A stretch of DNA of 39,055 bases from Alphaproteobacteria bacterium (GTDB lineage Bacteria > Pseudomonadota > Alphaproteobacteria > Sphingomonadales > Kordiimonadaceae), in the NCBI GenBank assembly GCA_013372975.1, contig JABXIS010000047.1, positions 1-39,055 on the forward strand, written 5' to 3'. Of the stretch, positions 9,935-34,612 are shown in pieces (positions within the stretch are counted from its first letter, which is position 1; every line of letters begins with the position of its first letter). The notes under the pieces were generated by a model that saw nothing but the letters and a program-made list of their open reading frames with translations, was not told where the DNA came from and ran no database searches. Position numbers and translations under genes: made by a program.

Positions 9935-12330
9935 AATTTTCCCTGAGCTGGCTCAAAGACTATCTGGAAACAGATGCGAGCCTTGAAGAAATCGTAGCAA
10001 AACTGAACGCCATCGGCCTTGAGGTTGATACGGTTGAAAATCCGGCTGAAAAGCTGGCACCTTTCACTGTGGCGGAAGTCTTGTCTGCAGAGAAACACCC
10101 GGATGCAGACAAACTGCGTATTTGCAAAGTGTCCAACGGTTCGGAGGAAATGCAGATCGTTTGTGGCGCCCCGAATGCGCGTGCTGGCATCAAGGTTGTG
10201 CTTGGCCGCCCGGGTGACTATGTGCCCGGCTTGGATGTGACGCTGAAGAAAGCAAAAATTCGCGGTGTCGAATCCATTGGCATGATGTGCTCCGCGAAAG
10301 AGCTGGAACTGGGTGATGATCATGACGGCATTATCGAGCTGCCTGAAGATGCGCCTGTTGGCACGCCGTATGTGGACTATGCCAAACTTGATGATCCGGT
10401 CATCGATATTGAGATTACACCGAACCGGCAGGACTGTCTGGGTGTATATGGCATTGCCCGTGATCTTGCAGCGGCTGGCCTCGGCACACTGAAAGTACTT
10501 CAGGTTGAAAAGAACGACGGCACGTTTGAAAGTGATGTGAAAGTTTCGATCGACCTGCCAGAAGAAGCCAAAAGCGCATGTACTCAGTTTCTTGGACGCC
10601 GCTTCAAGGGCGTGAAGAATGGGCCGAGCCCCAAGTGGCTGCAGGACCGGTTGAAGGCTATCGGACTGCGGCCGATTTCCAAGCTTGTGGATGTGACCAA
10701 TTATATCACCCACGATCTGGGTCGCCCGCTTCATGTATACGACGCGGGCAAACTGAATGGCGATTTGAAGGCGCGCCTTGCAGAGGCAGGTGAGAAGTTC
10801 ACTGCACTTGATGACAAGGAATATACCGCCAAGGGCGGTGAAACAGTGATCGCAGATGCCTCCGGCCCACAAGGCTTTGGCGGCATTATTGGTGGCTTGG
10901 ATACAGGCTGTTCAGATGATACGACAGACGTGGTTCTGGAAGCTGCTTTGTTTGACCCGAAGCGCACTGCTTTTACTGGCCGGGATCATGGTCTGATCAC
11001 TGATGCACGCTACCGGTTCGAACGTGGCGTGGATGAACTTTTCATCCGTGATGGTATGGAAATCGCCACCAAGATGATTCTTGATCTGTGTGGCGGTGAA
11101 GTGAGCCATGTATTTGAAGCTGGCAGCGATACCAATTGGAACAAAACAGTTCCGTTTCGCAGCGAGCGCGTGAAAACACTGGGTGGCCTTGACCTACCAG
11201 CCAGCGAAAGCGTGGCGATTCTGGAGAAGCTTGGCTTCCAGGTTGAGGGCACAGACCCCTATACCGTACATGTGCCGTCTTGGCGCGTGGATGTCGAAGG
11301 CGAGCCTGATATTGTGGAAGAGGTACTGCGCATTCACGGCCTCGACAATATCCCGAGCACGCCGCTTCCAGCCAATGATCACAAAGCTGGATCTACATTG
11401 AGCCCGCGCCAAAAGCGTGCGCGTGCTGTGAAACGGGAGCTGGCTGCGGTTGGCATGCATGAGGCCGTGACGTGGTCCTTCATGAAACAGGAGGAGGCGA
11501 CTCTGTTCGGTGGCGGCAGCGAGCGTTTGATGGTGGACAATCCAATTTCCAGCGAACTTGATTGTATGCGACCTTCTATATTGCCGAACCTGATGCAGGC
11601 CGGACAACGCAACCGCGATCGCGGCGCAGATGGAGTATCGCTGTTTGAGGTTGGGCCTATCTATCTTGACGACACCGAAACTGGCCAGCTTCTGGTGGCA
11701 ACTGGCCTGCGCGCCGGTCAATCTGGTGACCGCCATTGGGCAACTGCTGTGAAGCCTGTTGATGTTTTTGATGCCAAGCGCGATGCGCTCGCCGCACTTG
11801 CCGCTGTCGGTGCACCAACGGGCAATTTGCAGGTGTTTGATGAGGCACCAGCATATTACCACCCGGGTCGCTCGGGTACCTTGCGCCTTGGGCCGAAAAA
11901 TATTCTGGCCAGTTTTGGAGAGTTGCATCCAAAAGTGCTGAAAGCCCTGGATGTGGATGGACCAGTTGTTGGCTTTGAAGTGTATCTGGACCGAGTGCCT
12001 GCACCGAAGAAGAAAGGTGCCGCAAAAGGAGCGTTGTCAGTTTCCAATCTTCAGTCAGTCGAGAGAGATTTCGCGTTCTTGATGGACAGGGATGTGAAGG
12101 TGGAAAATCTGATTCGCGCGGTACGCGGTGCAGATAAGGCGTTCATTGCAGATGTCGGTATCTTCGATGTGTATGAAGGTAAAGGTGTGCCTGAAGGTCA
12201 AAAGTCAATTGCGGTTTATGTTCAGCTTGAACCGAAAGACGAGACCTTCACAGATAAACATATTGAAGAGATTTCTGACAAGATCTGCGGTGCTGCAGAA
12301 AAAGCTGTGGGGGCTGTCTTGCGCGGTTAA
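9931..12330 (+). CDS. pheT: Phenylalanyl-tRNA synthetase beta subunit
   Basis: A 799-residue protein of normal length. In order it has an N-terminal fold with [20 protein letters not shown]; an EMAP/OB-type tRNA-binding domain at about 40-150 ([37 protein letters not shown]); the B3/B4 editing domain (about 210-390, where misacylated Tyr-tRNA is hydrolysed); B5; a catalytic-like core (about 480-680); and a C-terminal ferredoxin-like anticodon-binding domain (FSxx-type, [18 protein letters not shown]). It begins inside the last codons of pheS. A hairpin terminator follows 24 bases after the stop. Confidence 0.97.
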
Positions 12331-31361: not shown

Positions 31362-32747
31362 ATGGCCGCTATCAGTTTCATTGTATTTCTGGTTTTATTC
31401 GGCATTGTGGGCATCTGGTCTGCGCGTAAAACCGGCGAAGGTGACAAGGATTACCTGCTCGCTGACGGCACGGTTTCCCCCTTCCTGACGGCACTCTCTG
31501 CCGCCGCCACCAAAAACAGCGGTTATATGTTCATCGGCCTGATGGGCTATGTGTTCACTTATGGCCTCAGTGGCATCTGGCTGGTGTGCGGCTTCCTGTT
31601 CGGTGATCTGGTGGCGTTCAGCTTTGTGCACAAACGCCTGCGCGCCGCCACGGAAGAGACGGGCGCTTTGTCCTATGCCGCGCTTCTCGCGCGCTGGGGT
31701 GGCGGCAACAAACGCATGCTGCAGCTGGCGGTGGGCACGCTCACGCTTGTGTTCCTCACAGTGTATGCCGCGGCGCAATTTTCGGCGGGTGGCAAGGCGC
31801 TTAGCGTGCTGTTTGGCTGGCCCAGCTTTGCGGGCGCGGTGATCGGCGCGGGGCTGATCCTTGTTTATTGCCTCACGGGTGGCTTGCGCGCTTCCATCTG
31901 GACAGACGCGGCACAATCGCTCGTGATGATGGGGGCGATGGTGATGCTTCTCCTGGCCAGCATATCGGGCGCGGGCGGGGTGGATGGTTTCACCACCCAG
32001 CTTGAGGCGGTGGCGCCGGGATATTTTGATCTGGGCGTGGAGCGTTTTGGCGGCATGGGGGCCTTGGCGCTGTTTGCGTTTGGTTGGCTGTTTAATGGCC
32101 TTGGCGTAACCGGCCAACCGCAGGTGATGGTGCGTTTCATGGCGCTCGATGACACGGAAAATACCCGCAAGACCGGCATCTATTATTTTGCCTGGACGGG
32201 CACGTTCCTTCTGACCACCTTTGTGGTGGGGCTGGCCACACGGCTGTATATTGACGGCACCGGCGGTTTTGATGCGGAGCTGGCGTTGCCCACGCTCGCG
32301 GGCCAGCTGATGCCTGGCGTGGCCGTGGGCATCATTTTGGGCGGGATTTTCGCCGCCACCATGAGCACCACAGACAGCCAGATATTGGCCTGCTCGGCGG
32401 TGCTATCTGAAGATTTCAAGCTGAAGGGCTGGCTGGGCGGCAAACGGCTGGCCACCTTCATGATCACCATGCTCGCCCTTCTGATCGCGCTGTTCGCCAG
32501 CGCCAACGTGTTCACGCTGGTGATTTTTGCCTGGTCTGCGCTGGCGTGCGGCTTGGGCCCGATCGTGATTGTGCATGCGCTTGGGGGGCGGCCCACGGAA
32601 GGCACCTGCCTTGCCATGATGGCCACCGGCCTCGTGACCGCCCTGATGTGGCGCGAACTGGGCCTGACAGCCATCACCTACGAAGGCCTGCCCGGCATGG
32701 CCGCCGCCTTTGTGGTGTATGGGATCGGGCGGGTGATCAGCCGGTAA
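31362..32747 (+). CDS. Sodium:solute symporter family (SSF) transporter
   Basis: A 461-residue integral membrane protein with about 12-13 hydrophobic helices and the SSF layout: FGIVGIWSARKTGEGDKDYL, the conserved start of TM2 (FLTALSAAATKNSGYMFIG), the Na-site region (GGLRASIWTDAAQSLVMMGA), and the TM8 signature GIILGGIFAATMSTTDSQIL. The tandem polar residues of the Na2 site (S/T-T-D) are present. It is closest to proline/amino-acid symporters of the PutP type by its general look, but substrate assignment is not justified. The stop codon is 7 bases before the composite repeat. AAAAGGGGAGG precedes the start. Confidence 0.88.
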   Translation: MAAISFIVFLVLFGIVGIWSARKTGEGDKDYLLADGTVSPFLTALSAAATKNSGYMFIGLMGYVFTYGLSGIWLVCGFLFGDLVAFSFVHKRLRAATEETGALSYAALLARWGGGNKRMLQLAVGTLTLVFLTVYAAAQFSAGGKALSVLFGWPSFAGAVIGAGLILVYCLTGGLRASIWTDAAQSLVMMGAMVMLLLASISGAGGVDGFTTQLEAVAPGYFDLGVERFGGMGALALFAFGWLFNGLGVTGQPQVMVRFMALDDTENTRKTGIYYFAWTGTFLLTTFVVGLATRLYIDGTGGFDAELALPTLAGQLMPGVAVGIILGGIFAATMSTTDSQILACSAVLSEDFKLKGWLGGKRLATFMITMLALLIALFASANVFTLVIFAWSALACGLGPIVIVHALGGRPTEGTCLAMMATGLVTALMWRELGLTAITYEGLPGMAAAFVVYGIGRVISR

Positions 32748-32754
32748 TACTGAC

Positions 32755-32891
32755 GTCATTCCGTGCCCCGCCGTTAGGCAGGTTTTGAGGCGGAATCCAT
32801 AAACAAAAGAAGCCTTCGCCTGTAGGCGAAGACTTTATTCGTCTCTGGACCCCGGATCGTATCCTCGGCCTTGCCTCGGGTCCGGGGTGAC
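32755..32891. repeat. Composite 137-bp repeat, copy A (arms X then Y)
   Basis: Left arm X (32755-32799) starts GTCATTCCG and ends GGAATCCA; the centre (32796-32849) is TCCATAAACAAAAG, AGCCTTCGCC, a short loop, GGCGAAGACTT and CTCTGGA; right arm Y (32849-32891) runs from ACCCCGGATCG to GGGGTGAC. Each module can form its own hairpin. A second copy with inverted, exchanged arms is at 34140-34276 and has the same length. No open reading frame or transposase is present. Confidence 0.9.
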
Positions 32892-32915
32892 GGGCGAGTG
32901 ATCCGAGACATATCC

Positions 32916-33033
32916 GTCATTCCCGCGAAGGCGGGAATCCATAGACGAGCGATGCATTGAAGATGGGACAGATGGAAGGTGGATTTCGTTCCTTCGGCCC
33001 TTCCCAAAAGGTCAGGGCCTCGCCCGGAATGAC
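32916..33033. repeat. Further repeat module with dRS3-like hairpin
   Basis: Starts GTCATTCCCGCGAAGGCGGG and ends CCCGGAATGAC, so it is bounded by the same GTCATTCC/GGAATGAC ends as arm X. Its first part, ATTCCC-GCGAAGGC-GGGAAT (32919-32938), fits the pattern ATTCCC-N8-GGGAAT known to me as dRS3 from Neisseria. The internal sequence (32952-33020) is not obviously repeated in this window. Together with copy A it fills most of the 352-base gap 32748-33099; no gene is seen there. Confidence 0.75.
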
Positions 33034-33099
33034 GGTTTAGGTTGCGGGCAGTGCGAAAGAGACGTGTGAGTGATGGTTGTTAGCAGCTGGGATTGGGCC

Positions 33100-34041
33100 T
33101 TATCCAAATGCCGCAGCATCGACGAATGTAAAGTGATTAACTTCCTTTTCTCGAATTCCCGAACAAGGAAGCAAATTGTCTACATTGAGGTTTTTAAAGA
33201 ACCGAAACTCCTCAGCAAACTGCCGATACTGCTCCCCTTCGGGTTTTAGGCAATAGTAAAATATCATGAATAATTCGCTGTCAGAAATCTGGGCTCTTAC
33301 AATGCCAATGTAGAATTGTTTCTGGCCGTCGGTAAGATCACTTTCTGACACATAGATGAAGATGTTGAAGAGCATCCGGAAGTAAGTGTGGATACCGTCA
33401 GGAGCCTTAGAGAACAAGCTACCATTGGGATGAAAACTAGGACTTCCCTCATAAAACCAGTCCGAAAATTGTTTCGCAATCTCCAATTCTGTCAGTTTTG
33501 TTTCGAGTATAGCTTTCGACTCTCTACTGAGTTGGTCTCCTGCATTTTGACGGATCTGTCGCCACTTTTGGACTATGTCATTCATCCAGATCGTGAAGTT
33601 TATTCGACCTTCATGCCGACCAACTTTGATTTCACCAATATAGGTATTGAAGTACGCCAATAGTTGATAAAAAGTATTTTCGAACTGTTGTCGGCCGAGA
33701 GTTTGGTTTTGCTGAACCATTTCTGCCTTTTGAGCTTCTAAAGTAGTTCTCGTTAACTCTAGTTCTTGACGCTGGTCTTCAAGGGTTTCGCGGGTCAACT
33801 CTAGTTCTTCACGTTGCATGAAAATCGAAATCACAATACCTGCAAAGGCGAAGCCAGAAAAAAGTGACGTTAAGCCACCAAACATGTCACCAAAGGTTCC
33901 TCGATTGCCAACATTGATCCAATCGGGACCCCAAAGGAAAGACCAAAGGGTGAAAAACCAGACCAATAGAATTAGTGCTCCAACAATGAAGGATCGTTTC
34001 TTCCAGTTTGGTCGAAGTTTCTTGGTTTCTTCTTTCGGCAT
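33100..34041 (-). CDS. Putative phage abortive infection protein (putAbiC family)
   Basis: A 313-residue membrane protein. Order: basic tip, transmembrane helix about 17-37 (FIVGALILLVWFFTLWSFLW), the segment NRGTFGDMFGGLTSLFSGFA leading into a second helix (about 55-74), then a coiled coil (about 75-118) containing a near-perfect 14-residue tandem repeat, and a soluble C-terminal domain. The C-terminal domain has the family landmarks QQFENTFYQLLAYFNTYIGE, HTYFRMLFNIFIY and GIVRAQISDSELFMIFYYCL. This matches the putAbiC family as I recall it; antiphage action is presumed from annotation of the family, and the mechanism is unknown. The start at 34041 has GAGGA 8 bases upstream; the frame to 34128 runs through a likely promoter. 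AT-richer than its neighbours and placed alone between repeats, so probably acquired. Confidence 0.78.
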   Translation of the reverse strand: MPKEETKKLRPNWKKRSFIVGALILLVWFFTLWSFLWGPDWINVGNRGTFGDMFGGLTSLFSGFAFAGIVISIFMQREELELTRETLEDQRQELELTRTTLEAQKAEMVQQNQTLGRQQFENTFYQLLAYFNTYIGEIKVGRHEGRINFTIWMNDIVQKWRQIRQNAGDQLSRESKAILETKLTELEIAKQFSDWFYEGSPSFHPNGSLFSKAPDGIHTYFRMLFNIFIYVSESDLTDGQKQFYIGIVRAQISDSELFMIFYYCLKPEGEQYRQFAEEFRFFKNLNVDNLLPCSGIREKEVNHFTFVDAAAFG

Positions 34042-34098
34042 CGTGGAAATCCTCACGAAAATTGGGGTCGGTAAAGACGATATCAGCGTGAAAAATAT

Positions 34099-34128
34099 AT
34101 TATAAAAGTTGAACCTTGGCGATGTCAT
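34099..34128 (-). promoter_or_regulatory. Candidate promoter of the putAbiC-like gene
   Basis: On the minus strand ATGACA (34128-34123) and TATAAT (34104-34099) are separated by 18 bases; the -35 box matches five of six and the -10 all six. Transcription would start near 34092, giving a leader of about 50 bases before the ATG at 34041. The promoter lies inside the repeat-bounded segment, so the cargo would carry its own expression signal. Confidence 0.55.
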
Positions 34129-34139
34129 ATCGAGTTTCC

Positions 34140-34276
34140 GTCACCCCGGACCCGAGGCGAATGCCGAGGATGCGATCCGGGGTCCATAAACAAAAAGCCT
34201 TCGCCTTTGGGCGAAGACTTCTGTTTGTCACTGGATTCCGTGTCGCAACCTGCCTGTCGGCAGGGCCCGGAATGAC
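34140..34276. repeat. Composite 137-bp repeat, copy B (arms Y' then X')
   Basis: Left arm (34140-34186) starts GTCACCCCGGACCCGAGGCG and is the near-exact reverse complement of the right arm of copy A. The centre (34183-34235) is TCCATAAACAAAA, AGCCTTCGCC, GGCGAAGACTT and CACTGGA, in the same orientation as copy A. The right arm (34231-34276) ends GGAATGAC and is the reverse complement of copy A's left arm. It ends 9 bases before the sufA stop codon and, with its hairpins, may also act as the 3' end of the suf transcript. Confidence 0.9.
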
Positions 34277-34285
34277 GGCTGAGAC

Positions 34286-34612
34286 TTAAACGTGAAAACT
34301 CTCACCACAGCCGCAGCGGCCTTTTTCGTTCGGGTTGGTGAATTTGAAGCCGGTTGAGAAAAGGCTGTCTTCCCAGTCCATCTCTGTGCCCAACAGGAAC
34401 AGGAGGGACTTGCGGTCCACAAACACTTTCACGCCTTTGTCTTCCACCACTTCATCGTCCGCTGATGGTTCTTCCACATAATCGACCGTATAGCCCATGC
34501 CCGAACAGCCGTGTGTGCTGGTCCCGAGTTTCAGGCCCACGGCATTTTCGTTTTTGGCCAACAACGCCCTGATATGGTCTGCGGCGCGGTCTGTAATCTG
34601 GATCACTGACAT
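34286..34612 (-). CDS. sufA: A-type iron-sulfur carrier protein (SufA/IscA-like)
   Basis: A 108-residue HesB-fold protein with the three cluster ligands Cys36 (STHGCSGMGY), Cys100 and Cys102 (KGRCGCGESF). A-type carriers receive clusters from the SufBCD scaffold and pass them to target proteins. Sequence type alone does not separate SufA from IscA or ErpA; operon position supports SufA. It is the last gene of the leftward suf operon, 30 bases after the sufT-like gene. Its stop lies 9 bases from composite repeat copy B. Confidence 0.9.
   Translation of the reverse strand: MSVIQITDRAADHIRALLAKNENAVGLKLGTSTHGCSGMGYTVDYVEEPSADDEVVEDKGVKVFVDRKSLLFLLGTEMDWEDSLFSTGFKFTNPNEKGRCGCGESFHV

Follow-up and report, generated by a model that had tools for sequence, protein, structure and literature searches.

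Long-armed REP-like dimers with exchanged arms and co-oriented centers bracket an AbiC-like gene between a symporter gene and sufA

REPINs, which occur with RAYTs, are inverted pairs of palindromes that enclose a spacer and carry a GTAG tag. In alphaproteobacteria, CGTC-tagged REPs predominate, mainly as dimers of opposite orientation, and heterodimers are common (Di Nocera, De Gregorio, and Rocco 2013, PMC3733652). These REPs have a stem of 8 to 9 bp, a loop of 4 to 5 nt, and structured spacers of mostly 20 to 100 bp, and in the species diagrammed in that survey, REPs between convergent genes lie mostly <20 bp from both gene 3' ends (PMC3733652). Families with fewer than 20 units are allowed, and the parts of the 2013 survey drawn on here report no linked or dedicated transposase and no obvious reason for the preference for heterodimers (PMC3733652). 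The dRS3/NIME arrays of Neisseria have a suggested role in the exchange of the genes that they flank, according to the sections consulted of a review (PMC3898611).

The window analyzed here is a 39,055-nucleotide stretch of an alphaproteobacterial contig (JABXIS010000047.1). Within it, two repeats of a related kind (copies A and B) enclose an AbiC-like gene in the gap between two convergent genes. The features are as follows, in window coordinates except for the last.

31362..32747, + strand: sodium:solute symporter gene, with 7 bases from its stop to copy A
32755..32799, + strand: copy A, arm X, a long CGTC-type REP arm of 45 nt with an inner hairpin (GTCATTCC...GGAATCCA)
32800..32845, no strand given: copy A, center, a near-palindromic hairpin of 46 bp, terminator-like on both strands
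32846..32891, - strand: copy A, arm Y, 46 nt, whose - strand reads GTCACCCC...GGGGTCCA
32916..33033, + strand: composite D, a 26-nt short arm plus a degenerate long arm that falls outside the arm pattern; related to composite E
33100..34128, - strand: AbiC-like gene with a putAbiC domain
34140..34186, + strand: copy B, arm Y, 47 nt
34187..34231, no strand given: copy B, center, 45 bp, oriented as the center of A, terminator-like on both strands
34232..34276, - strand: copy B, arm X, 45 nt
34286..34612, - strand: sufA (Fe-S biosynthesis), with 9 bases from copy B to its stop
Contig C45 (L082 1636-1735): composite E, which has its short arm in common with D and a related long arm, absent from the preliminary description

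The preliminary description had presented A and B as repeats of equal length that abut the two gene ends and have exchanged, inverted arms around centers of the same orientation, and each of these points holds. Both copies are exactly 137 bp long (32755-32891 and 34140-34276), and the 7 and 9 bases listed above are all that separates them from the stop codons. When the arms of A are compared with the inverted arms of B, X is 80% and Y is 92% identical, and the centers are 85% identical in direct orientation versus 73% when inverted; overall, A is 82.7% identical to the reverse complement of B. Each arm begins with GTCA, continues through a palindromic stem, and ends with TCCA, with the partner arm reversed (GTCA-stem-TCCA/TGGA-stem-TGAC). 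Since X and Y, inverted, flank a hairpin spacer, the whole unit may fold into a single rod.

The repeats are concentrated at this locus. Screening of the source genome (G000; 3.63 Mb) with the arm pattern GTCAYYCCSN{2,32}SGGRRTCCA, in which only exact fits are recorded and nested arms may count twice, yielded six arms, compared with none for a reversed control pattern. Five of the six arms lie within the 1,538-bp (1.54-kb) symporter-sufA gap, and the sixth lies at C45:25135. The possibility raised in the preliminary description that the elements are ubiquitous intergenic repeats of random orientation was thus not borne out by the genome-wide search that it had proposed; its view of arms and center as modules also stands, and the pairing of the repeats around exchangeable cargo is taken up below. 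Composite D, which is located between A and the AbiC-like gene and had escaped the preliminary description, has a short arm with an 8-bp stem and a 4-nt loop (pattern ATTCCC-N8-GGGAAT), and composite E terminates 10 bases away from the point where the upstream ORF ends (3'). No third copy of A/B was detected in the source genome, either by BLAST (E ≤ 0.01; A and B only) or by a covariance model among the best 56 candidates per genome.

These counts bear on whether A, B, and D are separate transpositions of a mobile, REPIN-like REP dimer into a single permissive gap between convergent genes, in which case the arm swap would reflect random direction and the reversed center would be a separate accident. 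We regard this origin as a serious but not the favored possibility. Random direction does account for the inversion of the arms between A and B, and dimers elsewhere are mostly units with fixed internal polarity. However, three of the four dimers in the source genome occupy one gap, for which P is ~5e-7 under uniform insertion (at least two of the other three, given one there; D and E are counted as dimers, although just one arm of each fits the arm pattern). Moreover, inspection of the flanks by eye revealed no target duplication, and the Y1 transposase domain (PF01797) has no match in the source genome. Among the relatives with A/B-like elements introduced below, there is likewise no match in G004, and there are two in G046; overall, 13 of 59 genomes carry PF01797, i.e., 2 of 11 arm-rich genomes versus 11 of 48 others.

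Pattern-matching arms were identified in 32 of these 59 genomes (source included), 11 of which contain at least 20 arms, and the examined regions of several arm-bearing genomes include inverted arm pairs. In G038, too, there are long arms that contain an inner hairpin, several of them paired with short arms. The covariance model detected full-length relatives in G004 and G046, at one place each, both in the set of 59 relatives and in a set of 296 genomes of the order. With one element on a viral contig (IMG/VR; L205), three A/B-like elements of 134 to 139 bp were found. The L205 element (11719-11857) is a 139-bp long-armed dimer that lies on the far side of tail-type genes and may be close to a prophage end. 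Among the 59 relatives, weak covariance matches appeared in G027 and G053, and across 385 genomes of the class, the sole further match was an ordinary short-armed pair; these scans scored at most the best 56 (59 genomes), 11 (296 genomes), or 8 (385 genomes) candidates per genome, and weak copies may escape them. Tags vary: AGTC in E and ATCA in the left arm of the element in G046. On viewing, the weak matches in G053 and G415 proved to be ordinary short-armed CCGG-type pairs, and, by eye, a pattern match in L206 lacked the remainder of the element. Screening of the genome collection with a pattern for the left center half returned 38 stretches (39 matches), none with the second hairpin half within 30 bases or with a nearby pattern-matching arm, and the center-type pattern occurs in only 1 of the 296 genomes of the order, namely, the source genome. 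Rfam returned no match for 32600-34500 at E ≤ 1, and copy B had no match to plasmids or phages at E ≤ 0.001.

The centers of A and B align better in the flipped than in the unflipped relation to their arms (scores of 29.5 and 18.0; difference, 11.5). Because the center is nearly palindromic, drift was tested by simulating divergence without a flip, with 3,000 trials per ancestor and rate. A difference of 11.5 was reached in 0 of 3,000 trials for every asymmetric ancestor and rate and in 0.03 to 0.77% of trials for perfectly palindromic ancestors. Drift in a nearly palindromic sequence fails to account for the mismatch: one copy of the pair has its center reversed relative to its arms. Among the long-long elements of G046, G004, and L205, the relation of center to arms is the same in all three pairs (pairwise scores of 8.0 versus 2.5, 16.0 versus 0.0, and 23.0 versus 7.0), and with the orientation fixed among these elements, the flip in A or B is the exception. 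Joint scores were highest when one copy alone was taken as reversed (137.0 and 135.5 for A or B alone, 129.0 for both, and 120.5 for neither). We had considered A to be the odd copy and B to be the ancestral one, and this assignment was given up, as scores of 137.0 versus 135.5 do not separate the two.

The heterodimers of G038 were sampled from 28 regions (L165-L192), which were chosen among the arms listed, plus one more dimer. For short/long heterodimers, the orientation of spacer relative to arms is constant in all eight that were scored (two spacers, those of L172 and L184, are identical; the ninth long-arm locus, L171, has a truncated spacer and was left out, and the degenerate short arm of L170 was placed by hand). 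For short heterodimers, 16 of 20 were scored, the four with spacers of <15 nt being left out; the orientation is shared by 10, flipped in 1 (P = 0.034), and without assignment in 5. However, 6 of the 10 agreeing dimers formed the reference set, which was picked by eye for common orientation; the ten dimers outside this set comprise 4 that agree, the flipped one, and the 5 without assignment. To judge from these sequences, coupling of center and arms looks like the rule and the A/B pair looks like the exception. A separate observation on G038 is that the two arms of its heterodimers differ (TTCC versus TCCC or CCCC), so that one strand has a G-U pair where the other has an A-C mismatch; relative to this difference, 10 of the 11 spacers with an assignment are co-oriented, the six of the reference set included.

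A reversal of this kind might be a programmed switch in which a recombinase flips the center to set termination on or off. The center is bracketed by short inverted repeats (TCCA...TGGA), and its relation to the arms is opposite in A and B. Nevertheless, these bracketing repeats are exact over only ~4 bases, and the two centers differ at ~15% of aligned positions, a divergence which implies that the reversal is probably old; we consider a programmed inversion very improbable. A local palindrome event, such as template switching or recombination of the TCCA...TGGA repeats, would be the preferred source of the reversal.

Both copies also fold strongly as RNA, more so on the - strand. RNA fold z-scores are -3.8 (+ strand) and -6.5 (- strand) for A and -6.4 (+ strand) and -9.4 (- strand) for B. 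Intrinsic-terminator patterns, with a GC-rich hairpin ahead of a T-run, match both strands of both centers, with stems of 13 and 11 pairs on the - strand versus 7 and with better T-runs on the - strand than on the + strand at both centers. The - strand sites (32835-32810 in A and 34222-34193 in B) point the way in which sufA and the AbiC-like gene are read; with two copies, the same direction would arise by chance 1 time in 2. The whole region contains five terminator-like sites, compared with 2.6 (SD, 1.5) in shuffles. By pattern, the centers resemble intrinsic terminators and are candidates for this role. Evidence for such a role across the family is mixed: in G046, divergent ORFs flank the element, and there is no terminator call for its center; the G004 center lies downstream of a + strand ORF, and both of its strands score; and at the L205 center the + strand, which is the direction of the upstream ORF, scores, with an earlier terminator-like site intervening.

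If the centers act as intrinsic terminators or RNA hairpins, they would be read leftward in both copies, so that B would close the sufA transcript and A would close the AbiC-like transcript. In a stronger form of this idea, long-armed REP dimers would be modular insulators, in which a terminator-like center turns within fixed arms and is kept to stop neighbor transcription, sealing the incoming defense gene on both sides against the host operons. We find this stronger form unlikely. If it were true, the co-directed centers of A and B would be a product of selection, and retention of the spacer in the direction of transcription would offer a testable reason for the separation of arms and spacer.

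The gene enclosed by the repeats has the appearance of an import. Its putAbiC domain is matched with an E value of 8e-18, PADLOC matches it to AbiP (4e-10) and AbiC (1e-4), and its GC content is 42%, compared with 61% for the symporter gene and 53% for sufA. We infer that it is a foreign phage-defense gene. AbiC-like relatives are present in 8 of 296 genomes of the order (source included), and the plasmid relatives of the protein comprise four records, all with <60% identity. A promoter-like site adjoining B (34128-34099; 11 of 12 matches) is one of four in the region, compared with 1.8 (SD, 1.3) in shuffles. Within 34128-34039, this site covers the opening codons of the AbiC-like ORF, and an ATG at 34041, with GAGG nearby, makes a better start. 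Because of the promoter-like site, the sequence makes a translation start at 34041 more likely than one at 34128.

The preliminary description had gone further and proposed that A and B mark a slot for the exchange of cargo. In such a cassette slot, the two copies would be homology arms, and cargo would be swapped between strains by homologous recombination, as proposed for the Neisseria dRS3/NIME arrays in the consulted part of the review (PMC3898611). The repeats do bracket an AT-rich, defense-like gene and occupy the two extremes of the gap, which holds five of the six pattern-matching arms of the genome. We examined sufA loci in relatives, using one genome per species for both the sufA and the AbiC-like comparisons; sufA matches were found in 23 genomes, and 21 loci were examined, with G026 and G029 left out. 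None of the 21 loci has a symporter gene adjoining sufA within the sequence examined, although some offer little room (L083 ends 103 bases past sufA, and L023 has a short contig end). The DNA that follows sufA varies: 18 loci (L083-L100 range) fall into eight groups by shared downstream ORFs, four of which are single loci and four of which have two to five members. This side of the suf operon may therefore be prone to variation. However, no pattern-matching arm, whether in a fused copy or in a pair, was present at any of the 21 sufA loci (0/21), nor was one found at the seven other AbiC-like loci of the order (2.5 to 3.5 kb each). Together with the absence of a third copy in the genome, this speaks against the claim of a cargo-exchange slot. 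In addition, A and B share just 83% identity and are mutually inverted. Their longest perfect match, flanks included, is 21 bp and inverted, which means that recombination between A and B would invert the cargo rather than excise it. We therefore judge a cassette slot to be unlikely, and transcription barriers are a more likely role for A and B than a gene-swapping slot.

Overall, we think it probable that A and B represent two old copies of a CGTC REP heterodimer variant with long arms and a low copy number, that the block was imported or built with the AbiC-like gene, that one center was flipped locally, and that the repeats are in transcriptional use. The repeat block would have arrived with the foreign AT-rich gene or grown around it.

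Among described systems, the closest to A and B are the CGTC REP dimers, with which they share the outer GTC tag, the palindromic stem, the inner CCA, opposed pairing, a structured spacer, a position <20 bp from gene 3' ends, and the lack of a linked transposase, as characterized in the sections of the 2013 survey drawn on here (PMC3733652). The CGTC tag and CCA tail are present in A, B, and the short arm of D (CGTCA...TCCA); A and B are opposed dimers or heterodimers with a structured spacer; and their distances from gene 3' ends (7 and 9 bp) are within the described range. The short arm of D has the described stem of 8 to 9 bp with a loop of 4 to 5 nt, whereas X and Y, counted by hand, have a stem of 6 to 8 bp and a loop of ~24 to 27 nt with an inner hairpin. 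As X and Y fall outside this stem-loop definition, we term A and B a variant rather than plain members. They differ from CGTC REPs in their 45- to 47-nt arms, which contain an inner hairpin where those REPs have a loop of 4 to 5 nt (PMC3733652, in the sections used), in their very low copy number (6 arms per 3.63 Mb), and in the reversal of one of two spacers relative to the arms.

The resemblance to other systems is more limited. A and B are like REPINs in being inverted palindrome pairs but differ in their CGTC tag and in the absence of a Y1-family transposase from the source genome. The short arm of D resembles dRS3 of Neisseria (ATTCCC-N8-GGGAAT in the review sections consulted, PMC3898611). 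The dRS3/NIME definition calls for 20-bp repeats of this pattern arrayed with RS elements; the pattern fits D and E alone, in their short arms, no RS elements or large arrays were noticed in the gap, and A and B fall outside this definition. There are almost 700 copies of dRS3 (PMC3898611), compared with six arms here. The suggested exchange of flanked genes by dRS3/NIME resembles the slot idea of the preliminary description and is without support at this locus.

To judge by titles or the beginnings of abstracts, only the 2013 survey among the papers found seemed to treat CGTC dimers and spacer inversion, and, as far as we searched, the long arms and the reversed center are new details of a known kind of repeat. 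The parting of arms and spacer in A and B is a clear case and shows that copying does not always preserve REP units as fixed blocks, which bears on two questions left open in the portion of that survey drawn on here, namely, how heterodimeric REPs arose and how CGTC REPs move (PMC3733652).
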